NCBI GenBank assembly: GCA_026395435.1
Contig: JAPLYT010000012.1
Location: 1 to 37,552, forward strand
Reading direction: 5' to 3'
Origin: Candidatus Saccharimonadota bacterium
GTDB taxonomy: Bacteria; Patescibacteriota; Saccharimonadia; Saccharimonadales; AWTP1-31
DNA length: 37,552 nucleotides
Under the pieces are notes generated by a model. It had not been told where the DNA came from and made no database searches. It was given only the letters and a program-made list of their open reading frames with translations. Both the position numbers and the translations under genes were made by a program. Below are positions 1,388 to 26,155 of the stretch, piece by piece (the stretch's first letter is position 1; each line of letters begins with the position of its first letter).

Positions 1388-2593
1388 ATGAAAGATAAAA
1401 AACCGATTACAAAAGCATCACGGAAGGAACTCGCAGCAGAGCGTAAGCTTCTTGGCACGCATTCTGGCCTCAAAGAAGAAAGACTCTATCATCGGATACT
1501 CAATAAAGTTCGTTTCGAAAAGCCCACCTTTTGGTGGCAAGACCGATCGATCTGGCAAAAGATTGGGCTAATCCTCGTATCCTTAATAGTTTTGCTTACA
1601 AGCTCCATGTACGGCATCGCCCGCTGGTATATTGCCAGCCAAGCCCACAAAGAATTCAAGTTTGGAGCCACATTCATTCCAAGTTATGCAGAATATTTCG
1701 AGCTTGACCCGCAAGCTACTATGCAGGCCATGATCGATGAGCTCGGCATTCACCATTTCCGCTTGGTCAGCTATTGGAATGATATCGAGAAAAACCCTGG
1801 AACGTACGATTTCAGCCAGCTTGATTGGCAATTCAAAAAAGCAAATGAATCAGGATCGACGGTCAGCTTAGCAATTGGCCTGCGACAACCTCGGTGGCCA
1901 GAATGCCACATGCCAGACTGGGCCATGACCCAGCAAAAAGATGTTTGGTATCCGCAGCTCAAAGCCTTTATGGCCAAGGTTATTGATCGTTACAAGGGGA
2001 ATCCCGCGCTTCAAAGTTATCAGCTCGAAAACGAATACTTCCTCGATGTATTTGGAGAGTGTAAAGACTTCAGTAGAGATAGACTGGTAGATGAGTTTAA
2101 TTTTGTGAAGCAGCAAGACCCGACTCATACCGTCATAATCAGCCGAAGCAATAATGCTATTGGGCTACCGATAGGCAATCCTCGACCAGATAAATTTGGC
2201 ATATCTGTCTACAAACGGGTATGGGATAAAGCGTTTACCAAGCGGTACTTTGAATATCCGTTCCCGGCCTGGTTCTACGCTTTCTTGGCGGGAGCGGGCA
2301 AGATAGTCACCGGTAAGGATATGATCATCCATGAGCTTCAGGCAGAGTCCTGGGGACCAAACAAAGGCATTACCGAAATCTCAATTGAGGAACAAAATAA
2401 ATCACTCAATGCCGAACGGCTGACCAACCGTATCAAATACGGCAGGGCGACTGGCATGCGCGAAGTCGATCTTTGGGGCGTCGAAATGTGGTACTGGCGC
2501 AAAGTGAAGATGAATGACCCAAGCTTGTGGAATGCCGGTAAAGCCGCCATCCGCGATCAGCAATGCTACGATTGCTATCTGCCCAACAAATAG
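1388..2593 (+). CDS. Membrane-anchored glycoside hydrolase-like TIM-barrel protein
   Basis: N-terminal TM; HFRLVSYWNDIEKNPGTYDFSQLDW...YQLENEY; ...IIHELQAESWGP, resembling clan GH-A glycosidases. Confidence 0.65.
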   Translation: MKDKKPITKASRKELAAERKLLGTHSGLKEERLYHRILNKVRFEKPTFWWQDRSIWQKIGLILVSLIVLLTSSMYGIARWYIASQAHKEFKFGATFIPSYAEYFELDPQATMQAMIDELGIHHFRLVSYWNDIEKNPGTYDFSQLDWQFKKANESGSTVSLAIGLRQPRWPECHMPDWAMTQQKDVWYPQLKAFMAKVIDRYKGNPALQSYQLENEYFLDVFGECKDFSRDRLVDEFNFVKQQDPTHTVIISRSNNAIGLPIGNPRPDKFGISVYKRVWDKAFTKRYFEYPFPAWFYAFLAGAGKIVTGKDMIIHELQAESWGPNKGITEISIEEQNKSLNAERLTNRIKYGRATGMREVDLWGVEMWYWRKVKMNDPSLWNAGKAAIRDQQCYDCYLPNK

Positions 2594-2633
2594 CCATCTG
2601 TTAGGAACGCTTTCTCCCTGTTATACTGCATGC

Positions 2634-3107
2634 ATGGTAAAGAAAAAGACTGCCACCAAACCAAAAACCATACAGAACCGTCGCGCTCGGCATGATTATG
2701 CTATCGATGATAGTTTGCTGGTGGGTATCCAACTCACTGGAGCCGAAACCAAATCTCTCCGACACGGTCATGGTCAGCTTCGTGGTGCCTATGTGACCGT
2801 CAAAGATGACCAACTATGGCTCATCAACGCCACCATTTCCAGCATGCAAGGAATATCCATTGATGAAGCAGACCAAACGCGTACTCGCAAACTACTGGCT
2901 CACCGCAAAGAAATCGACAAACTGATCGAACTCAAAAAACAAGGGCAGGCAATCGTGCCGCTGGAGCTTCTCACTAGTTCGCGCTTCATAAAACTACGCA
3001 TCGCAACAGGACGTGGTAAAAAGCTCTATGACAAGCGACAAACGCTCAAAGCACGTGATGAAGGCCGACAGATCAATGCTGAAATCAAGGCGAAAGTCCG
3101 ATCGTGA
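2634..3107 (+). CDS. smpB: SsrA-binding protein SmpB
   Basis: NRRARHDYAIDDSLLVGIQLTGAETKSLRHGHGQLRGAYV...KLYDKRQTLKARDEGR; start MVKKKTATK 6 nt after a TATACT -10. Confidence 0.95.
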   Translation: MVKKKTATKPKTIQNRRARHDYAIDDSLLVGIQLTGAETKSLRHGHGQLRGAYVTVKDDQLWLINATISSMQGISIDEADQTRTRKLLAHRKEIDKLIELKKQGQAIVPLELLTSSRFIKLRIATGRGKKLYDKRQTLKARDEGRQINAEIKAKVRS

Positions 3108-3622
3108 TCAGCGACGGCCACGATGAGATGGTGATCGTAGTTGATGATAATGACAATATTTTAGGCTACAAAACTCGTAATCAATTGTTATTTACCGATC
3201 GAACTCGTGTATCTGGAGTCTGGATAGAGAATGGCAAGGGCGACGTACTGCTGGCACAACGTTCTTGGCAAAAAGAATTTCACCCCGGCTTATGGGGATC
3301 AGCTGCTGCTGGTGGGGTAGAGAAAAGCGAAAGCTATGAGCAGAACGCCTACAAAGAATTATTTGAAGAGGTTGGCCTGCGCGATGTGCCATTGAAGCTT
3401 GTCGATACCCGCCCGGTGACCGATGCCGACGGCCACATGATGTATTTGGCATTTTATAAAGGAACCGTGGATGTAGAAATCGATCAGCTGGAACTTGAAG
3501 ATGAAGTTGAAGCAGTTCAATGGATGACGAAGAAAGATCTTACAACTGATATCAAGAATAATCCCACTAAATACGTCCCCAGTGCCTATGCACTGTGGGA
3601 TGAACTGTTCCTGTCTAAATAA
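3104..3622 (+). CDS. NUDIX hydrolase (isopentenyl-diphosphate isomerase/YfcD-like)
   Basis: NUDIX box GVEKSESYEQNAYKELFEEVGL; start overlaps smpB stop. Confidence 0.85.
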   Translation: MISDGHDEMVIVVDDNDNILGYKTRNQLLFTDRTRVSGVWIENGKGDVLLAQRSWQKEFHPGLWGSAAAGGVEKSESYEQNAYKELFEEVGLRDVPLKLVDTRPVTDADGHMMYLAFYKGTVDVEIDQLELEDEVEAVQWMTKKDLTTDIKNNPTKYVPSAYALWDELFLSK

Positions 3623-3681
3623 CAGCCTGTCTCATTGCAAAAATAGCGTAATGCGCCTATGCTAACCAATAGTTGTACAAA

Positions 3682-4053
3682 ATGAAAAATCATCACAAAC
3701 AAAAACTATTCTTACTCAAAGAGTTCAGCCTTGGATTCTTAGCCGTTGCCAGCATTGGGCTGGTACTATATGAGTTTATCGGTAACCCCAGCGAAGCGCG
3801 CATTGTAACCATCCAGCATATTGATTTCTGGATAGCGATCGCATTTTTAGTTGACTTCACCATAAGCCTCATCACCACTCGCGATAAGCAAAAATATGTC
3901 CGGCATAACTGGTATTTTCTGCTTGCAGCCATTCCACTCACCGACGCTATAGCTGAGTCGCTTCGTGGCATTCGTGTGCTCCGTTTAATCCGACTCATCC
4001 GGGCAGGTGAGCACCTGGGGTTCGAACAATCCGAAACAAAACGAAAGCGATAA
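3682..4053 (+). CDS. Small voltage-sensor-like/ion-channel N-terminal domain membrane protein
   Basis: Hydrophobic helices and S4-like RGIRVLRLIRLIRAGEHL; ends without a visible pore region. Confidence 0.55.
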   Translation: MKNHHKQKLFLLKEFSLGFLAVASIGLVLYEFIGNPSEARIVTIQHIDFWIAIAFLVDFTISLITTRDKQKYVRHNWYFLLAAIPLTDAIAESLRGIRVLRLIRLIRAGEHLGFEQSETKRKR

Positions 4054-4086
4054 ATTCCCGCGCCTCACCATTTTACTCCTAAGGAG

Positions 4087-4115
4087 TTGCGAAGAAGCCC
4101 CACCTTCGGTATAAT
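4087..4115 (+). promoter_or_regulatory. Putative sigma70-type promoter of the tRNA-Asn array
   Basis: TTGCGA-N17-TATAAT. Confidence 0.55.
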
Positions 4116-4156
4116 TCACGAGTTGTAGCACATTCTACACGTTCCTTTTAGTATAT

Positions 4157-4395
4157 TCCCGGGTAGCCTACAAATAAGCGTGGAACAAGATGCTCCACCA
4201 GAGCTACCTAGGAAAAATCAACATTAAAATTATAATCCCGGGTAGCCTACAGATATGTGTGGAGCAAGATGCTCCGCCAGAGCTACCTGAGAAAATCGTT
4301 CGTTCACCAATATATTCCCGGGTAGCCTACAAATAAGTGTGGAGCAAGATGCTTCACCAGAGCTACCTGAGACTTATATACATACACCACAATAT
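4157..4395 (+). repeat. Three tandem ~80-bp tRNA-like units upstream of tRNA-Asn
   Basis: TCCCGGGTAGCCTACAxATAxGYGTGGARCAAGATGCTYCRCCAGAGCTACCT starts at 4157, 4236, 4316; the tRNA starts at 4396 (spacing 79/80/80). Confidence 0.9.
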
Positions 4396-4470
4396 TCCCG
4401 GGTAGCTCAATGGTGGAGCAAGAAGCTGTTAACTTCGAGGTTGTCAGTTCGAGTCTGACCCCGGGAGCCA
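4396..4470 (+). tRNA. tRNA-Asn(GTT), CCA encoded
   Basis: Acceptor TCCCGGG/CCCGGGA, D-arm GCTC..GAGC, anticodon loop CTGTTAA, T-arm GTCAG TTCGAGT CTGAC, G73 CCA. Confidence 0.93.
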
Positions 4471-11746: not shown

Positions 11747-12645
11747 AAATCGGATTTATCGGGCTCGGCAAAATGGGCGGCAACATGACCAAACGACTTA
11801 TAGCCGCTGGGCACGAGGTGGTGGCTCTCGACCCAAATGAGGCAGCACAAACTGATGCCAAAACCGCTGGCGCAACCGTCGTTGCCGATCGCCAAGAACT
11901 CATCACGAACTTAGAAAAACAAATCATCTGGCTCATGATCCCATCCCAGCTTGTCGATGCTGAGATCGACGCACTCTTAGGGCTCGTACAGCCTGGTGCG
12001 ATCATCATCGACGGAGGAAACTCCGACTTCCGACTTAGCCAAAAACGAGCCGAAACATGTAAGGCCAAAGACGTAGTCTTTTTGGACGTCGGCACCAGTG
12101 GTGGCATATTGGGCCTCGAAAACGGCTACGCCATCATGGTGGGTGGGGACCAAGCAGCAGTAGCTGAACTGTCACCAATATTCGACGCACTTGCACCAAA
12201 GGACGGTTGGAGCGCATTTGGCGAAAGTGGCAGTGGCCATTATGTGAAGATGGTTCATAACGCCATCGAATACGGCCTGATGGAGGCATACGCCGAAGGC
12301 TACCGCATGCTCAAAGACGGACCATTCAAGAATATCGACCTCGCCAAAGCCGGTGGTGTTTGGCAACACGGCAGCATCATCGAATCCAAGCTCAATGAGC
12401 TCACCACCCAGGCGCTCATCGAAAACCCTCAGCTCGACGGCATCGACGGCTTCGTCAAAGAATCGGGAGAGGCTCGCTGGGCACTCGAAATGGCCAAAGA
12501 TAATGGCCTCGATGCGCCAGCCATTTCGGCATCCTTCGACGTCCGACTGCAAAGCCAAAAAGGTCAGGTCAACTTCGCCACCAAGCTACTGGCTGCCATG
12601 CGTAACAAATTTGGTGGGCATGCCATCAATAAGGAGCAATCATAG
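11743..12645 (+). CDS. gnd: 6-phosphogluconate dehydrogenase (decarboxylating)
   Basis: MKIGFIGLGKMGGNMTKRLIAAGHEV...IIDGGNSDFRLS...DVGTSGGILGLENGYAIMVGG...GSGHYVKMVHNAIEYG; SD AGGAGG. Confidence 0.95.
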   Translation: MKIGFIGLGKMGGNMTKRLIAAGHEVVALDPNEAAQTDAKTAGATVVADRQELITNLEKQIIWLMIPSQLVDAEIDALLGLVQPGAIIIDGGNSDFRLSQKRAETCKAKDVVFLDVGTSGGILGLENGYAIMVGGDQAAVAELSPIFDALAPKDGWSAFGESGSGHYVKMVHNAIEYGLMEAYAEGYRMLKDGPFKNIDLAKAGGVWQHGSIIESKLNELTTQALIENPQLDGIDGFVKESGEARWALEMAKDNGLDAPAISASFDVRLQSQKGQVNFATKLLAAMRNKFGGHAINKEQS

Positions 12646-14126
12646 TGAATAAAGGGCAGCCGCTCGAGCCAGCCATTCTGACGATCTTCGGCATCACCGG
12701 CGATCTAGCTCGGCGAAAACTGTTGCCGGCGCTGTATCAATTGGCTCACCAAAAACATCTTCCAGCCTCTTTCAAAATTGTTGGAATTAGCCGACGGGGA
12801 ACCAAAGTCAGTGACGTCATTGAAGTCATAAAAGACAGCGTCCATGCATCCGGCAAACGCTGCGACGATACCACCATCACGTGGCTCGAGCAAGCTATCA
12901 GCATCGTCGATATGGATATCACTAATCCTGACGATTATGCCAAGCTCAAAACCGAGCTCGATACCCTCGAGGATTCAGTCGGCGTCTGCTTGAACCGTTT
13001 ATTCTACCTAGCTATCCCAGCATCACTGTTTAGCTCGGTCATCGATCGGCTTGGCAAAAAAGATCTCAACACCGGCTGCCAACATGGCATCACCGAAAGC
13101 CGTTTGCTTATCGAAAAACCTTTTGGCTACGACTTGAGCTCCGCCAAAGAACTCATCAACACTCTTGGTAAATCATTCAGCGAGGATCACATCTACCGTA
13201 TCGATCACTACCTTGCCAAAGAAGTATCCCAAAACATTTTGACCCTCCGTTTCGAGAACCCACTGTTTAGCACATCGTGGAACAAAGACCACATCAGCCA
13301 CATCGTCATCACCTCATCCGAAACTATCGGCATAGAGGGCAGGGTGGCATTTTATGAACAAATGGGAGCCTTTAAAGATCTGATCCAGAGCCATCTATTC
13401 CAGATCCTAGCACTGGTCACCATGGACCGGCCGACCAAAATGGAAGCACCTGAAATTCACAAAGCTAAAGTAGCAGTCATGCACAAAATGCTGCCTCCAC
13501 ACGAAAACGACATGGCCACCCAAACGGCTCGGGGCCAATACCAAACATATAAAGAAGAGGTGAGTAGCCACCACAGCACGGTAGAAACCTATGCTGCTGT
13601 ACGCGTGACCATCGACGACCCAAAGTGGCAGGGCGTGCCCATGTATATCCGCACCGGTAAAGCATTATCCGACAAAGTCATCGAGGTGACCGTGGTCTTT
13701 AAAGATCCCGTAGCGCCAGAATGCACCAACCACCTGACCATTCGCATCCAACCCAACGAAGGCATCGTGCTCAACCTCCGCATCAAGAAGCCCGGCTTCG
13801 AACATGTGATCCAAGATGTGAATATGGACTATTGCTACAACCAAACGGCCGATACCGCCCACCCAGACGCCTACGAACGAGTCCTGGTAGACGTTATGCG
13901 GGGCGACAAAACCCTCTTCGCCACCAACGACGAAGTCCTGGCCAGCTGGCAGATCACCGAACCCATCATGCAAGCCTGGCAAGCCAACCAAGTCCCACTC
14001 CACATCTACCAAAACGGCACCTTCGGCCCCAAAGAAGCCGACGACTTCCTCTCAGAAGTGCAGGGCACCTGGCCAAAGAGCGGCCCAAACATCTGCCACA
14101 TCCCAGAAAAATCCTCAGTCAATTAA
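12645..14126 (+). CDS. zwf: Glucose-6-phosphate 1-dehydrogenase (GTG start)
   Basis: TIFGITGDLARRKLLPALYQL...YRIDHYLAKE...YIRTGKAL. Confidence 0.95.
   Translation: MNKGQPLEPAILTIFGITGDLARRKLLPALYQLAHQKHLPASFKIVGISRRGTKVSDVIEVIKDSVHASGKRCDDTTITWLEQAISIVDMDITNPDDYAKLKTELDTLEDSVGVCLNRLFYLAIPASLFSSVIDRLGKKDLNTGCQHGITESRLLIEKPFGYDLSSAKELINTLGKSFSEDHIYRIDHYLAKEVSQNILTLRFENPLFSTSWNKDHISHIVITSSETIGIEGRVAFYEQMGAFKDLIQSHLFQILALVTMDRPTKMEAPEIHKAKVAVMHKMLPPHENDMATQTARGQYQTYKEEVSSHHSTVETYAAVRVTIDDPKWQGVPMYIRTGKALSDKVIEVTVVFKDPVAPECTNHLTIRIQPNEGIVLNLRIKKPGFEHVIQDVNMDYCYNQTADTAHPDAYERVLVDVMRGDKTLFATNDEVLASWQITEPIMQAWQANQVPLHIYQNGTFGPKEADDFLSEVQGTWPKSGPNICHIPEKSSVN
14037..14104 (+). repeat. Copy 1 of the 68-bp zwf 3'-end direct repeat
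   Basis: 60/68 identical by eye to 16943-17010. Confidence 0.93.
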
Positions 14127-14145
14127 AGATGATATGATGTAAGAC

Positions 14146-14826
14146 ATGAATAATCAAACACGCGAAGCTATGACAGAGATAAATCCAATTGATAAAAAAT
14201 CGTTTCGACGGCCAAGAATATTTCGTAGGTCTGTTGCAGCTGCAGGATTTGTAGGAGTTTTATTGAGTGGGGCATGCACGCCTAGCACTGGAGAGCCAGG
14301 ACCGACAACATCGACAACAGAAGTGACTACAACTACAGAGTTAGCTACCACGACTACAACTGAATTACCGACAACTACAACAACCACCGAAGTACCTCGA
14401 TTAAAATTATTCGATGGAAATAATGATTTAATTGGCATAGAACCGGTATTCGTAGGGCCAAACAATCAAGCGTTCAACCAACAATTAGGTAGACTGGTAA
14501 TTTTTGATAATCTTGGAAGGATAAAAACTTCTGATGTAACTTTCGATAGGCCAAATTGCAGCGGTAATGCATACTATTCAACTCGAGATAATTCACCTAT
14601 TAGCCCGCAATTAAGTTTAGGCGTAATTAAAAACACACTAAACTTTAATCATTATTACATTACCGACAATAGCGTAGCACCTGTATATACAGCGCTCCCA
14701 AGTTACCGAGATGATAATAATGTTTGCAATAATTCAACATTCATTGGAAACGTATACAGACTCGATGAAGTTACTTTGCCGTTTCAAGAACCAATAGTTC
14801 AACCACTTCGACTTAGCGTTGAATAG
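14146..14826 (+). CDS. Lipoprotein with Thr-rich linker and unknown C-terminal domain
   Basis: Lipobox LLSGAC; TTSTTEVTTTTELATTTTTELPTTTTTTE; leaderless TATGAT-7 nt-ATG. Confidence 0.7.
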   Translation: MNNQTREAMTEINPIDKKSFRRPRIFRRSVAAAGFVGVLLSGACTPSTGEPGPTTSTTEVTTTTELATTTTTELPTTTTTTEVPRLKLFDGNNDLIGIEPVFVGPNNQAFNQQLGRLVIFDNLGRIKTSDVTFDRPNCSGNAYYSTRDNSPISPQLSLGVIKNTLNFNHYYITDNSVAPVYTALPSYRDDNNVCNNSTFIGNVYRLDEVTLPFQEPIVQPLRLSVE

Positions 14827-15262
14827 AAATATTGAAGTAACTGTCGATAAATTTTGCAGATCCCATCTGTTTCTTTGTGACTGCCATAGCGCCAACGTCT
14901 AGGCCAGCATTGAGAGTCGTCTCGCCAAGACTAGGGCTTCCAGCGCGAAGTGGATTATAGTTTCTGACATTAGAATACAAATCAAAGACCAAACCTACCA
15001 AAGCTATTCTAGGCAACCATATATACAATATTTTATTGAAGGTTCGATAATAACTCTTCGGGGTAGGGTAGTTATAGAAGTTTACGATCGACAGAACAGT
15101 GAAAAACACCACAAACGCAGCCATAATGAGCGCAAACATTACTTTGTTATCTATATCTTTCAGGCTATAGACACCCACGACCATCACTAGCCCAATACCA
15201 ACCAACGGCCCAACAATTCTACTTTTTATGATCGATGCTATCTCGTTTTCCATACTTAGCAT
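14813..15262 (-). CDS. Small integral membrane protein
   Basis: Three hydrophobic helices; tail overlaps convergent lipoprotein gene. Confidence 0.6.
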   Translation of the reverse strand: MLSMENEIASIIKSRIVGPLVGIGLVMVVGVYSLKDIDNKVMFALIMAAFVVFFTVLSIVNFYNYPTPKSYYRTFNKILYIWLPRIALVGLVFDLYSNVRNYNPLRAGSPSLGETTLNAGLDVGAMAVTKKQMGSAKFIDSYFNISIQR

Positions 15263-15301
15263 AAGTATAGCTGAATATTTTAGTTGTGATAATCGCCTCT
15301 T

Positions 15302-15334
15302 AACTAGTGTTTACTGCTTGGCTAAAGTAGAATG
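15302..15334 (+). repeat. 33-bp promoter-region repeat, copy 1
   Basis: AACTAGTGTTTACTGCTTGGCTAAAGTAGAATG; 30/33 identical to 17531-17563. Confidence 0.9.
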
Positions 15335-15374
15335 AAATTATTATTTAAGCATTTGTTAAAAATAAGGACGATAC

Positions 15375-16076
15375 ATGGCAACAGAGCATCAACTTAATTC
15401 GCTAAAAGAATCAATCAAGTTATACAAGAGAAAGTATCTACGAAAAGAATTTTCCCAGCTTGATGAATCGGCAACAAGAATCATGACAAACAATTTCTTG
15501 ACTGAAATTCTTGGCTACAAAGAACTTGAAGAAATAAAAACAGAATACAGAATTAGGACCGAATATGCCGATTATGTAATTCAACTCAAACGGAAAAAGC
15601 ATTTTGTAGTCGAAGTTAAATCTATTGATATTGATATAAGTGAAAAACATCTTCGTCAAAGTTTAAGTTATGCAGCGAACGAAGGTATTGACTGGATTTT
15701 ATTATTAAATGGACGTGAAATTCAACTCTACAGAGTAAATTTTGGAAAACCTGTAACAACCACACTCATTTTTAAATTAGATCTAACAGTTGATGAAGAC
15801 TTGAAAAAAGCCCCATCACTAGTTTGGAACCTTACTAAAAAAGCTGTAGAAAAAGGGGACTTAGAAGATTTCTGGAAGCGTACGAACGCACTTAACACTC
15901 AAAACCTTTCTAGACTACTGTATTCAGAAGAAGTGATTAAAAGACTCAGGAATGACCTCAAAGAACAGACCGGCATATATTTTCAAATGGAAGATATTGC
16001 AGAATCATTATGCCAAATTATCAAAGAGCCGATTGATTTTCCTAAACCAAGAATAAGAACTAAACGTAAGAGCTAA
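15375..16076 (+). CDS. HsdR-N-like PD-(D/E)XK nuclease domain protein
   Basis: YRIRTEYADYVIQLKRKKHFVVEVKSIDIDISEKHLRQSLSYAANEGIDWILLLNGREIQLYRV; SD AAGGA. Confidence 0.75.
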   Translation: MATEHQLNSLKESIKLYKRKYLRKEFSQLDESATRIMTNNFLTEILGYKELEEIKTEYRIRTEYADYVIQLKRKKHFVVEVKSIDIDISEKHLRQSLSYAANEGIDWILLLNGREIQLYRVNFGKPVTTTLIFKLDLTVDEDLKKAPSLVWNLTKKAVEKGDLEDFWKRTNALNTQNLSRLLYSEEVIKRLRNDLKEQTGIYFQMEDIAESLCQIIKEPIDFPKPRIRTKRKS

Positions 16077-16199
16077 TAGCAACTTTTATATCATTAATAC
16101 ACGGATAAGTAGGATGTTTGACAAAATTTCACTCCTAAACACTTCTCATGGGAAAATTGCTATAGTCATTCAAACTACTCCATATAGTCGTGCATTTAT

Positions 16200-16871
16200 A
16201 TGAGGTTATTTTTAGCTACATTAGTACTACTATTTTTCTTTGTTTTAGTCTTATGGCTGGATTATATGAGCGACAAGACTTTTAAGTCTGAGACAGGTGG
16301 TAAGCATTACTATCCATCAAAAAAAGAAATTGTAAAACCGACTATAGTTAAAGAGAATAATGGGTTGTATAACTGGAGTTACTGGACAATTGACCATCTT
16401 GGTAAGCATGTGGATCCAGATAGTAGTTGGGGTATATTACGACTAAAAGTATTTTCGAGGGATGATCATAAATGCTTAGATTGCGGATCTAGAACCAATC
16501 TAACAGTACAGCATAAGGTTGCGCTTTCACTTGGCGGTTCAAATAAAACCGACAATCTAATTACACTTTGCGCAAAATGTCATGAAAAAGCTGATAAAAA
16601 GATTATTTTTACTGCGAAAAAAGATTTCGGTGACTTCAGTAATTATGGTGATCAAGATATTTTAACAGATCGCGTCGACCAAATAAGCGAACAGATCTAT
16701 CTGAACGAAACCATAGAGATAGAGTATACGGACGACAAGGGGACCAAAACAGTGAGACGAATAACGCCAAAGAGACTTTTTTTAGTTGACGAGAAAGCTT
16801 ATCTCAGAGCATATTGTGATCTAAGAAAAGCAGATAGGACATTTAAAATAGCTAGAATTATTATCCGCTAA
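16200..16871 (+). CDS. N-terminal TM + HNH endonuclease + WYL-like domain fusion
   Basis: TM LFLATLVLLFFFVLVLWL; HNH CLDCGSRTNLTVQHKVALSLGGSNKTDNLITLCAKCH; WYL-like QIYLNETIEIEYTDDKGTKTVRRITPKRLFLVDEKAYLRAYCDLRKADRTFKIARI. Confidence 0.75.
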   Translation: MRLFLATLVLLFFFVLVLWLDYMSDKTFKSETGGKHYYPSKKEIVKPTIVKENNGLYNWSYWTIDHLGKHVDPDSSWGILRLKVFSRDDHKCLDCGSRTNLTVQHKVALSLGGSNKTDNLITLCAKCHEKADKKIIFTAKKDFGDFSNYGDQDILTDRVDQISEQIYLNETIEIEYTDDKGTKTVRRITPKRLFLVDEKAYLRAYCDLRKADRTFKIARIIIR

Positions 16872-16942
16872 ACCTGTCAGTGACTTATTTAGCTCTTGGG
16901 GTATCGACAACTTGATGACATAAAGTCTGATCATCAGTAAAT

Positions 16943-17020
16943 GCCGACGACTTCCTCATAGAAGTACAGGGCACCTGGCCAAAGAGCGGTCCGAACATCT
17001 GCCTTGTCCCTTCAAGTTAA
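16943..17020 (+). pseudogene. Displaced zwf 3' end (copy 2), still coding ADDFLIEVQGTWPKSGPNICLVPSS*
   Basis: 68-bp homology to the zwf end, own TAA at 17018-17020 directly abutting the convergent stop of the next gene. Confidence 0.9.
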
Positions 17021-17497
17021 CTAGAGAATCTTTTTTGCAGCGTTAACGACATCACTCGTTAATGAGATATTGTAAGCACCCATAGTGCTATGCCACTTTT
17101 TAAACTCATTGAATTGATCGAAAGTTAATTCATATATGTTTTTAGGGAGATAATCTTCGAGTACAACGATAATTAAATATTCAAAGTTCTTTATCAAATT
17201 TGGGCTATCAGGTTTTCCATGCCCACGAAATACTCCGGTAGTTTTATTTGGATAAGTAATAGTTTTTATAGTGTATCTTTCTCCTTTATCGCTTATAGCA
17301 TCGATATTTTTAGTACTAGGAGGCGCTAAAAGTAAACGAGGTAGATTTGGGGTTTTTATGTATGTCGAAACAGCTAATTTCTCACCTCTTTCACCAGTGA
17401 CATTCTTGCTAGAAATCTCACCTTCTTCTTGTAACTGCTTATAGACATCAGAGTAGAGCTGCCATAGTTCATCAACTTTATAATTTTTTAAATTCAT
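17021..17497 (-). CDS. Restriction-endonuclease-like (DUF6998-like) protein
   Basis: GERGEKLAVSTYIKTPNLPRLLLAPPSTKNIDAISDKGERYTIKTI. Confidence 0.6.
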   Translation of the reverse strand: MNLKNYKVDELWQLYSDVYKQLQEEGEISSKNVTGERGEKLAVSTYIKTPNLPRLLLAPPSTKNIDAISDKGERYTIKTITYPNKTTGVFRGHGKPDSPNLIKNFEYLIIVVLEDYLPKNIYELTFDQFNEFKKWHSTMGAYNISLTSDVVNAAKKIL

Positions 17498-17530: not shown

Positions 17531-17563
17531 AACTAGTGTTTACAGATTAGCTAAAGTAGAATG
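17531..17563 (+). repeat. 33-bp promoter-region repeat, copy 2
   Basis: AACTAGTGTTTACAGATTAGCTAAAGTAGAATG. Confidence 0.9.
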
Positions 17564-17568
17564 TACGT

Positions 17569-17916
17569 ATGAATGATATTACTACACTCCAAAAACGAAT
17601 CGTTGATTTTAGAGATGCAAGAGATTGGAAACAATTTCATAATCCAAAAGATATGGCTATTTCATTAGTTCTCGAAGCAGCTGAAGTGATTGAACATTTC
17701 CAGTTCAAATCACCTGAGGAGATTCAAAGTCACTTAGAAAAGAATAAAGAAGATTTATCAGGAGAGCTTGCAGATGTTCTTTACTGGGTATTACTCATGG
17801 CTCATGATTTAGATATAGATATTTCAAAGGCTTTTGATAATAAAATGGCGCAAAACGAAGCCAAATATTCTGTCGAAAAATCAAAAGGGAATAATAAGAA
17901 ATATACCCAACTCTAA
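17569..17916 (+). CDS. MazG-like nucleotide pyrophosphohydrolase
   Basis: LQKRIVDFRDARDWKQFHNPKDMAISLVLEAAEVIEHFQFKSPEE...ELADVLYWVLLMAHDLDID. Confidence 0.9.
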   Translation: MNDITTLQKRIVDFRDARDWKQFHNPKDMAISLVLEAAEVIEHFQFKSPEEIQSHLEKNKEDLSGELADVLYWVLLMAHDLDIDISKAFDNKMAQNEAKYSVEKSKGNNKKYTQL

Positions 17917-19497
17917 ATGGCGCATATTCATACAATTAGTTACGAACCCGAATCATATAACTTACTTCGAAAAATTGAATTTACCTTTAACTGGCCGACC
18001 GTTTATCTACTTGAAGATGGTAAAGAGATTTATGTTGGTCAATCCGGTAACGTTGCAAGCAGATTTAAACAGCATAATAAAAATCCATCTAGAAGTAGGC
18101 TTAAAAAAGCCCACATTATTACAGATAGGGAATATAACCTATCTGCGACACTGGATATCGAATCTAAACTCATTCAATTTATAGCGGCTGATGAAAAATA
18201 TGTTTTACAAAATAGTAATGCAGGATTATTAGATCATAACTATTACGATAGAGAAAAGTATCTTACCAAATTCGAAGAACTTTGGATTGAGTTAAAAAAA
18301 CAGAACATTGCAGTACATGACTTGATTCAGCTGCGAAACAGCGATCTATTTAAATATTCGCCGTACAAATCGCTTACTGAAGAGCAAATTTCTATTGTTT
18401 CGAGTATTAAAGAATCTCTAGACACAGGGTTAGACCGATCTTACATCGTAAATGGGGAACCGGGTACAGGTAAGTCAATACTTGGTGTATATCTAGCAAA
18501 ATATTTGCTTGAAACTTTAAAGAGCGAGGAACCACTAAAAATTTCTCTTGTAATTCCAATGACTTCACTCCGAAAAACACTTAAGAAAGTCTTCGGTAAA
18601 GTTAAGGGTCTCAATTCAAGCATGGTTATTGGTCCTTCTGAAGTCGTAGGCAATACTTATGACGTGCTTATCGTCGACGAAGCACATAGATTAAGTCGAA
18701 GAATAAACCTTAGTGGCTATGGTCCTTTTGATCAAGCAAACAAATATTATAATCTTGGCAACAACGGTTCCCAACTAGACTGGATTCTATTGTCATCAAA
18801 GTCTCAGATTTTTCTCTACGATAGCAGACAGTCAATTACACCAAGAGATGTTAGGGCTGAAAAATTCAGCGAGCTGCCCGCAATTCATTACAACCTTACA
18901 AGTCAGTTAAGAGTTACTGCAGGTGATGACTATCTGAAATTTATTGATCAGTTGCTTGCGGCAAACGTTGGAGTTAAGCCTGACTTTAAAGCCTATGATC
19001 TTGAGTATTTTGAAAATCTAAAACCAATGATTGAAAAAGTTAAGGCAATGGATAAAAAGCATGGGCTTGCACGACTCGTTGCTGGATATGCATGGACATG
19101 GGAAACGAAGAAGAAAGATTCACAAGATTACGATATTGAACTAGACGGCCTGAAACTAAAATGGAATAGCGAAAACATTGATTGGGTCAATTCACAGAAT
19201 GCAATTAATGAAGTCGGCTGCATACATACAGTTCAGGGTTATGATCTGAACTATGTTGGAGTGATTATCGGACCAGAAGTAGGGTACAACCCAGATACCA
19301 AGAAGATAATTATCGATAAAGAAAAATATAAGGACATTAACGGCAAGAGAACACTTGAATCTCTTGAAGAACTTGAGCTATATATTAAAAATATCTATAA
19401 AACTTTATTGTCGCGCGGTATCAAAGGAACTTATATACACGCTGTCGACAAAGGCCTGTCTGACTTTATGTACAAAATGTTCAATAATTCTAACTGA
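17917..19497 (+). CDS. GIY-YIG-like domain fused to DUF2075/SF1-like ATPase
   Basis: VYLLEDGKEIYVGQSGNVASRFKQH; Walker A VNGEPGTGKSILGVYL; VLIVDEAHRLSR; ATG directly follows mazG-like TAA. Confidence 0.85.
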   Translation: MAHIHTISYEPESYNLLRKIEFTFNWPTVYLLEDGKEIYVGQSGNVASRFKQHNKNPSRSRLKKAHIITDREYNLSATLDIESKLIQFIAADEKYVLQNSNAGLLDHNYYDREKYLTKFEELWIELKKQNIAVHDLIQLRNSDLFKYSPYKSLTEEQISIVSSIKESLDTGLDRSYIVNGEPGTGKSILGVYLAKYLLETLKSEEPLKISLVIPMTSLRKTLKKVFGKVKGLNSSMVIGPSEVVGNTYDVLIVDEAHRLSRRINLSGYGPFDQANKYYNLGNNGSQLDWILLSSKSQIFLYDSRQSITPRDVRAEKFSELPAIHYNLTSQLRVTAGDDYLKFIDQLLAANVGVKPDFKAYDLEYFENLKPMIEKVKAMDKKHGLARLVAGYAWTWETKKKDSQDYDIELDGLKLKWNSENIDWVNSQNAINEVGCIHTVQGYDLNYVGVIIGPEVGYNPDTKKIIIDKEKYKDINGKRTLESLEELELYIKNIYKTLLSRGIKGTYIHAVDKGLSDFMYKMFNNSN

Positions 19498-25150: not shown

Positions 25151-26155
25151 ATGATTTCACTCTTTAGTTCGCTCGAGGCAGCAGCCGTTCATAGCTATCA
25201 CGTGCCATGGTTCATGTACGGATTAGTGGTTTTAGCTCTCATCGTTTACGCCGTCATCGAAGCCCGTCACACCAAGCGCGATCACGAGATCAAGTTCAAC
25301 GAAGCAGTCCGCTGGTCGGTTATTTACATCTCTGCAGCGTTGCTGTTCTCGATTCCGATTTATTTCTTCATCGGCCGTCAGGCATCGGGTGAATACCTGG
25401 CCGCCTGGGCCATAGAGAAGGCCCTAAGCCTCGACAACCTCTTTGTAATGGGCTTGATATTCAGTAGCTTCAAAGTCAGTCGTAGCCTAGAGCGCAGAAT
25501 GCTCAACTACGGAATTGCCGGGGCGATTATCTTTCGTTTGGTTTTCATCCTTGCTGGGCTCGAGCTTCTCAAGCGATTTGAATGGGTGAGCATCATCTTT
25601 GGATTGATCCTAATGCGGGCTGCCTGGAAAGCCTTCCAGGAAGCGCGGGGCGGGGATGAGCTGGAAGAAGATATTGAGATTACCGATAAAACTCTCTGGA
25701 AAGCTCTCACTCGGATCTTGCCCGTGCATCATGAATTTGTCGGCCACAAACTGACGGTCAAGATCGATGGCAAACGGATGCTGACGCTCATGGCGGCCGT
25801 CATCATTCTGATTGAACTAACTGATGTGATCTTTGCGGTCGACAGTGTCCCAGCCGTCTTGGCCGTTAGCCCAGACCGGTTTGTAGCCTATGCTAGTAAC
25901 GTCTTTGCAATCCTTGGGCTCCGGGCATTGTTCTTTGTCTACCAATCAGTTGCTAACAAATTCTGGGCTTTGGCATGGGCACTATCGGGCATCTTGGCCT
26001 GGATCAGTTTCAAAATGATCGCCGCGCCGCTCGGCCTCCATGTGCCAGTGTCTATCAGCTTACTCGTCTTGGCAGTATTCTTATTTGGTAGCATTTTTGT
26101 GTCACTCCAGTGGCCTAAGAAAGTCAAAGAACACCCAATCCACATCGACGAATAG
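25151..26155 (+). CDS. TerC family integral membrane protein
   Basis: AIEKALSLDNLFVMGLIFSSF...ELTDVIFAVDSVPAVLAVS. Confidence 0.93.
   Translation: MISLFSSLEAAAVHSYHVPWFMYGLVVLALIVYAVIEARHTKRDHEIKFNEAVRWSVIYISAALLFSIPIYFFIGRQASGEYLAAWAIEKALSLDNLFVMGLIFSSFKVSRSLERRMLNYGIAGAIIFRLVFILAGLELLKRFEWVSIIFGLILMRAAWKAFQEARGGDELEEDIEITDKTLWKALTRILPVHHEFVGHKLTVKIDGKRMLTLMAAVIILIELTDVIFAVDSVPAVLAVSPDRFVAYASNVFAILGLRALFFVYQSVANKFWALAWALSGILAWISFKMIAAPLGLHVPVSISLLVLAVFLFGSIFVSLQWPKKVKEHPIHIDE

Follow-up and report, generated by a model that had tools for sequence, protein, structure and literature searches.

A duplicated and diverged zwf 3' end as the probable scar of a recombinase-free insertion in a Saccharimonadota genome

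In the draft genome of a Candidatus Saccharimonadota bacterium, the 3' end of zwf is present twice: the working end is repeated 2.9 kb downstream as an orphan, and the two copies bracket a four-gene accessory block. Arguing by analogy with related sites, we judge that the orphan end is probably a scar left by recombinase-free insertion through RecA-type homologous exchange, the DNA having most likely been acquired by natural transformation. The zwf geometry, the lack of a recognisable recombinase in the block, the recurrence of the pattern here and in one family mate, two clean empty sites and one mosaic case are directly observed. The study genome (G000) is a 938 kb draft in 17 contigs, estimated to be 98% complete, and the window is a stretch of 37,552 nucleotides from contig JAPLYT010000012.1. 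Two of the genomes compared below are a family mate (G002) and a congener of that mate (G006).

The zwf gene (12645..14126, + strand) is the last gene of pgl-gnd-zwf and encodes an intact glucose-6-phosphate dehydrogenase of 493 aa, which scores 507 bits against TIGR00871 (cut-off 400.6) and carries both G6PD_N and G6PD_C. Copy 1 is its working 3' end, from codon 464 to the stop (14037..14126, + strand), and copy 2 is an orphan, start-less 3' end that runs to a TAA (16943..17020, + strand). As reported in the initial annotation, 14037-14104 and 16943-17010 are identical at 60 of 68 positions, and several of the differences are synonymous. Specifically, the repeated unit corresponds to zwf codons 464-486, with exact runs of 15, 6, 23, 2, 10 and 4 bases; among the six differing codons, 471, 479 and 480 are synonymous and the remainder change the residue (469 S/I, 484 H/L and 485 I/V). 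In a self-comparison of the whole genome the pair of tails has an E value of 5.5e-16, and the runner-up ungapped match to copy 1 within the window reaches 33/68. Searches with the zwf protein and DNA detected no third copy in the genome beyond these two tails, and a third tail, looked for where the AT-rich accessory region ends (it runs past 17020 to about 23.3 kb), was absent from both the window and the genome. The left edge of the repeat is abrupt at codon 464, its left flank scoring no better than shuffles (418/500 reach its score), and the right flank is not clearly above shuffles (140/500).

Copy 2 is still coding, as had been noted, up to its TAA (17018-17020), which directly adjoins the stop of the minus-strand gene at 17021-17497. 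It is translated as (V)NADDFLIEVQGTWPKSGPNICLVPSS followed by the stop, an open 26-codon end in which no start codon follows in frame after the TGA at 16928. Its third-position GC of 0.59 is zwf-like, compared with 0.25-0.44 for the genes of the surrounding region. By analogy with the rplA and NUDIX sites described below, copy 2 would represent the scar, that is, the displaced end of the resident zwf, and the right part of copy 1 would have arrived together with the block.

Within the block, gene 1 (14146..14826, + strand) is a lipoprotein-like ORF of 226 aa with a Thr-rich stretch and gene 2 (14813..15262, - strand) encodes a small membrane protein of 149 aa; profile searches gave no convincing family for either. 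Gene 3 (15375..16076, + strand) encodes an HSDR_N-type nuclease-like protein of 233 aa (PF13588, 3.5e-7, over the cut-off; phrog_17239, 1.5e-44), with a 52% identical homolog at another locus of G002. Gene 4 (16200..16871, + strand) encodes an HNH-WYL protein of 223 aa with an N-terminal hydrophobic segment (PF01844 and PF13280, both over their cut-offs), for which a single full-length relative, 40% identical, was found among 149 genomes of the order; its HNH part additionally matches the IscB model below the cut-off (1.5e-12). None of the block ORFs matches an integrase, in agreement with the initial annotation, or a transposase, and the only phage-integrase-family gene of the genome (PF00589) is located on contig C17, 300 kb or another contig away. 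Two genes resembling large serine recombinases, at C2:93933-95720 (L106) and C10:32071-33924 (L109), have 3' ends that match tRNA genes; going by these matches, they probably belong to elements that target tRNA genes and have no connection with the zwf site. For the block, an origin from a phage or satellite was rejected: scans of viral contigs yielded no HSDR_N or HNH-WYL relatives, one mREase relative and no instance of the core pattern, and the sole matches in phage records were to HNH domains and, distantly, to one restriction enzyme.

Past copy 2, the gene order is mREase_II-like, MazG, GIY-YIG/Schlafen-group-3 helicase and glycosyltransferase. The first of these, convergent to the scar (17021..17497, - strand), encodes a 158-aa protein similar to methyl-directed type II restriction enzymes (PADLOC mREase_II PDLC03205, 5e-39); the MazG-like gene (17569-17916, + strand; PF12643) and the helicase gene (17917-19497, + strand; PF09848), which make up the remainder of the AT-rich accessory region, are both over their cut-offs. 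The helicase also shows a sub-cutoff GIY-YIG-like segment at its N-terminus and weak matches to the Nhi and AbiO defence models, and, taken with the mREase_II-like gene, it hints at a small cluster of defence genes. The two copies of a 40-nt repeat (85%) flank the scar, one upstream of the HSDR_N gene (15302-15341) and the other upstream of the MazG gene (17531-17570), with promoter-like TTTAC and TAGAAT boxes and a conserved spacer; searching the genome with 13900-17100 revealed no third copy.

The pgl-gnd-zwf operon is itself cargo of a family-wide variable region, a setting that, like the general occurrence of the pattern across this family, is absent from the initial annotation. Its left frame (2514..4470, + strand) consists of smpB, a NUDIX gene, an ion-channel-like ORF and tRNA-Asn (4396-4470), with families assigned by domain search, and its right frame is terC (25151..26155, + strand; PF03741). 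smpB and tRNA-Asn are kept together in G001, G002, G003, G004 and G006, and in G002 and G003 terC, 78-79% identical, lies on the same contig as smpB. The cargo between these frames differs, amounting to about 20.7 kb in G000, 26 kb in G002 and 11 kb in G003, and homologs of the HSDR_N and MazG genes occupy other loci in family mates. One of six family mates has a zwf, which is 41% identical; no close zwf was found in relatives in the collections searched (the nearest is 58% identical), and a search of genome contigs returned a distant Chloroflexi zwf as its sole match. No orphan tail follows any of about 19 distant zwf genes, and strong matches to the 26-aa tail, searched in 393 genomes, are confined to this genome. 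Because neither a relative with a close zwf nor an empty or alternative zwf site was found, the zwf event, its polarity and a former adjacency of zwf to the gene at 17021 are read by analogy. At the edge of the variable region, directly upstream of tRNA-Asn, a sequence like the 5' half of tRNA-Asn (TCCCGGGTAGC...GTGGARCAAGATGCT...) is repeated imperfectly, in two to three copies, at 4152-4427.

A scan of 570 kb of relatives identified an orphan NUDIX end in G002, for which G006 provides the empty site. The 400 bp preceding the site are 97% identical in the two genomes. In G002, the NUDIX stop codon is followed by a cassette of 0.9 kb, whose single gene is Ham1-like, and then by the orphan end, the left part of which is about 70% similar and the last 32 bp of which, through the stop codon, are identical; beyond that stop, as far as tRNA-Asn, the sequence nearly matches the spacer of G006. 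Judged from these similarities, copy 1 is resident on its left and foreign on its right, and copy 2 foreign on its left and resident on its right. Such reciprocal mosaic copies are what a crossover leaves behind when it falls inside a diverged junction common to both partners, and 32 identical bases beside 70% identity have a probability of about 1e-5 under uniform decay of an exact duplicate. Related Ham1-like genes are found on opposite sides of one tRNA-Asn in these two genomes, as a reading frame just after it in G006 (L166) and as the cassette gene just before it in G002 (L157 4024-4840).

Further cassettes were identified in 711 kb of G002, with lengths of 0.8-5 kb and brackets of 44-148 bp formed by 76-91% identical copies of a gene end or junction. 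At the end of a 172-aa gene, a 0.93 kb cassette lies within a 44 bp bracket (91%), and the site is empty in G006 and G005, so that G006 has two clean empty sites, this one and the NUDIX site. Both G002 copies at the 172-aa gene share differences from G006, and the duplicate there may therefore be home-made. At the greA-lysS junction, a cassette of about 1 kb is bracketed by 148 bp (85%) that cover parts of both neighbouring genes; the two genes are adjacent in G001, where the site looks empty, and the site is filled in G006. The cargo here (L187 8130-9700; G002 C1 86130-87700) is an inositol-monophosphatase-like gene that opens with the first ten lysS codons (MATLKELRNE), so the insertion supplied a ready start region, an example of how an insertion can capture expression signals. 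Of the remaining G002 cases, one (5 kb) sits at the end of a 542-aa gene, one (0.8 kb) adjoins an apparent tRNA-Pro and one (4.9 kb) is intergenic. The 5 kb G002 cassette at C1:23613 was discarded as a clean empty-site case: G006 lacks it, but the sequence downstream differs there too.

Partly non-coding repeat pairs lying 0.2-10 kb apart are on the same strand in 20 of 20 cases in G002 (11 of them from one cluster) and in 8 of 9 in G000, which points to local brackets within contigs rather than scattered elements. This control of strand and distance disfavours dispersed repeats, even though 48 pairs in G000 do join separate contigs. When N-terminal and mid-gene segments served as census controls, near same-strand cases were few. 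Most of them were tRNA-derived ORFs; the others were the lysS start in the greA-lysS junction, a paralog cluster on C9, an intergenic pair on C5 and, in L163, a match of 20 residues. With so few events, the apparent bias towards 3' ends is not statistically secure.

In line with the zwf case, a second scar is present in the study genome itself. When the last 45 residues of 879 ORFs were compared with the genome, and matches from tRNA-derived ORFs or paralogs, one weak match on the opposite strand and one neighbour match of 14 residues were set aside, two same-strand orphan tails remained within 25 kb downstream of their genes, those of zwf and of ribosomal protein L1. The L1 tail is decayed and frameshifted; it is found 7 kb downstream of its gene, rplA, on the far side of a block of surface genes. 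rplA is followed by dcd in G002 and by a kinase and dcd in G003 and G009; in G000 the order is rplA, surface-gene block and orphan L1 tail, with the kinase and dcd beyond. The orphan tail is thus on the side of dcd, the ancestral neighbour, which gives the polarity of the rplA insertion. The rplA-dcd interval also varies in cargo among relatives, and in G005 it contains related surface genes in a different order and orientation. Among 149 genomes the L1 scar occurs only in this one, its family mates lacking it; the two other second L1 matches are apparently a frameshifted rplA and a match within another long frame. Elsewhere in G000, C15:134287-134389 and C15:146607-146709 form a 103-bp repeat, 96% identical and 12.3 kb apart, and the former adjoins an orphan C-terminal piece of an SRAP-like protein, the complete gene for which lies on contig C6.

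We propose that the incoming DNA carried the four-gene block next to the zwf 3' end of another lineage, and that it underwent RecA-type exchange with the resident zwf 3' end, with a crossover within the short gene-end homology. The working zwf would have retained its own 5' part and gained a foreign 3' part together with the block, and the resident 3' end, by analogy, would have been displaced 2.9 kb downstream, beside its old neighbour. Two routes would lead there: a circular molecule bearing one copy of the gene end could integrate by a single crossover, or a cassette that already has a copy on each side could be transferred by a double crossover; a circular donor with one junction and a linear donor with two are indistinguishable by their product. 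The DNA would most likely have entered by natural transformation, and the presence of ComEC, DprA, PilC-like and pilin/type IV pilus genes makes uptake of DNA from relatives plausible, as a prediction from gene content that is no proof of transformation. The RecA route, the source by transformation and the polarity at zwf are what we infer. The initial annotation had suggested that the block brought a replacement 3' end and left the older end behind, or the reverse; the former stands, and that copy 2 is the recipient's old end we accept by analogy only, from the rplA tail on the dcd side and the displaced NUDIX end that is continuous with the native spacer. A point against RecA-type exchange is the longest exact run, which at 23 bases is short for efficient exchange at today's divergence. 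No donor arrangement was seen in the genomes searched.

Homology-facilitated illegitimate recombination, in which one end of a linear foreign DNA recombines homologously within zwf and the other is joined illegitimately at resident codon 464, would make tail 2 purely resident. It agrees with the arrangement at zwf, where the left edge is abrupt and flanking similarity is missing, and is known from naturally transformable bacteria and from E. coli conjugation (PMC3240628), yet we hold it to be unlikely, since the G002 NUDIX scar combines a foreign or diverged left part with a resident-identical one and the duplicated greA-lysS unit extends over both neighbours. Under site-specific integration into the 3' ends of genes, with the integrase either supplied in trans or lost since, tails 1 and 2 would be attL and attR, the very geometry of 3'-end islands that rebuild their target gene, such as those at trmE and dusA (PMC8409611). 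Against it stand the absence of a recombinase from the block and the distance to the single phage-integrase-family gene; moreover, each case uses an unrelated gene end and a different repeat length, which one recombinase cannot serve, and the repeats have no fixed exact core, so we regard it as quite improbable. The different gene end per cassette, the variable repeat length and the recombinase-free zwf block argue against both a single integrase and transposition, and the mosaic copies fit RecA-type exchange at a short homologous junction.

The copies could also have arisen in place, if a transposition-like event or a replication error had copied the gene end exactly around the insert, with drift thereafter. 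The changes shared by the two G002 copies at the 172-aa gene and absent from G006 favour such a duplication, but the range of bracket lengths, the lack of a transposase in the zwf block and the uneven identity at NUDIX, so rare under even drift, leave it very unlikely. A transposon with target-site duplication was rejected, as the brackets are neither short and exact nor of fixed length. The assembly is a draft, so that two strains might have been joined at the zwf end; this we consider scarcely credible, given that nothing is common to the left of copy 2, that the longest shared exact run is so short, and that a second genome shows the pattern independently, its congeners having empty sites. 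As a general system, small cassettes might travel with a mimic of a gene 3' end as their sole address label, integrate reciprocally at that end in relatives and leave as circles, possibly aided by a dedicated trans-acting recombinase, a speculation to which we give little credence. As base-pair records of single events, the scars reveal the gene end involved, the approximate position of the crossover and the identity of the resident copy. Because a script can count them in any genome, the route of gene gain can be tested directly in small-genome bacteria.

The minimal mobile element of Neisseria is a small cargo between conserved genes that is moved by transformation and recombination and has no mobility gene, and the cassettes resemble it in the small cargo, the conserved neighbours and the lack of a mobility gene. 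To our knowledge, that concept does not include a duplicated junction. Integrase-free hotspots owe their turnover to homologous recombination in the core genes that flank them (Oliveira et al. 2017, PMC5635113), and for replacement islands no clear boundary hallmarks are reported and duplications are not mentioned (PMC4033161). The present sites are like such hotspots in their variable cargo between conserved neighbours, their lack of a recombinase and a content that differs per relative; those hotspots, however, were inferred from recombination statistics or identical clusters, and here the junction of each single event is marked by a gene end that has been duplicated and has diverged. SGI1 at trmE and the dusA islands integrate at gene 3' ends via an encoded integrase at a fixed site (PMC8409611). 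Similarly, the inserts at zwf and at NUDIX, the latter with its empty site, supply a complete target 3' end and displace the old one, but the zwf block encodes no integrase, there is no common attachment site and another gene end is used each time. Homology-facilitated illegitimate recombination adds foreign DNA from one homologous anchor without a recombinase (PMC3240628), but does not predict the mosaic second copy at NUDIX. Taken together, and against a short literature comparison, the hotspot frame is already known and the new part is the duplicated, diverged junction as a scar.
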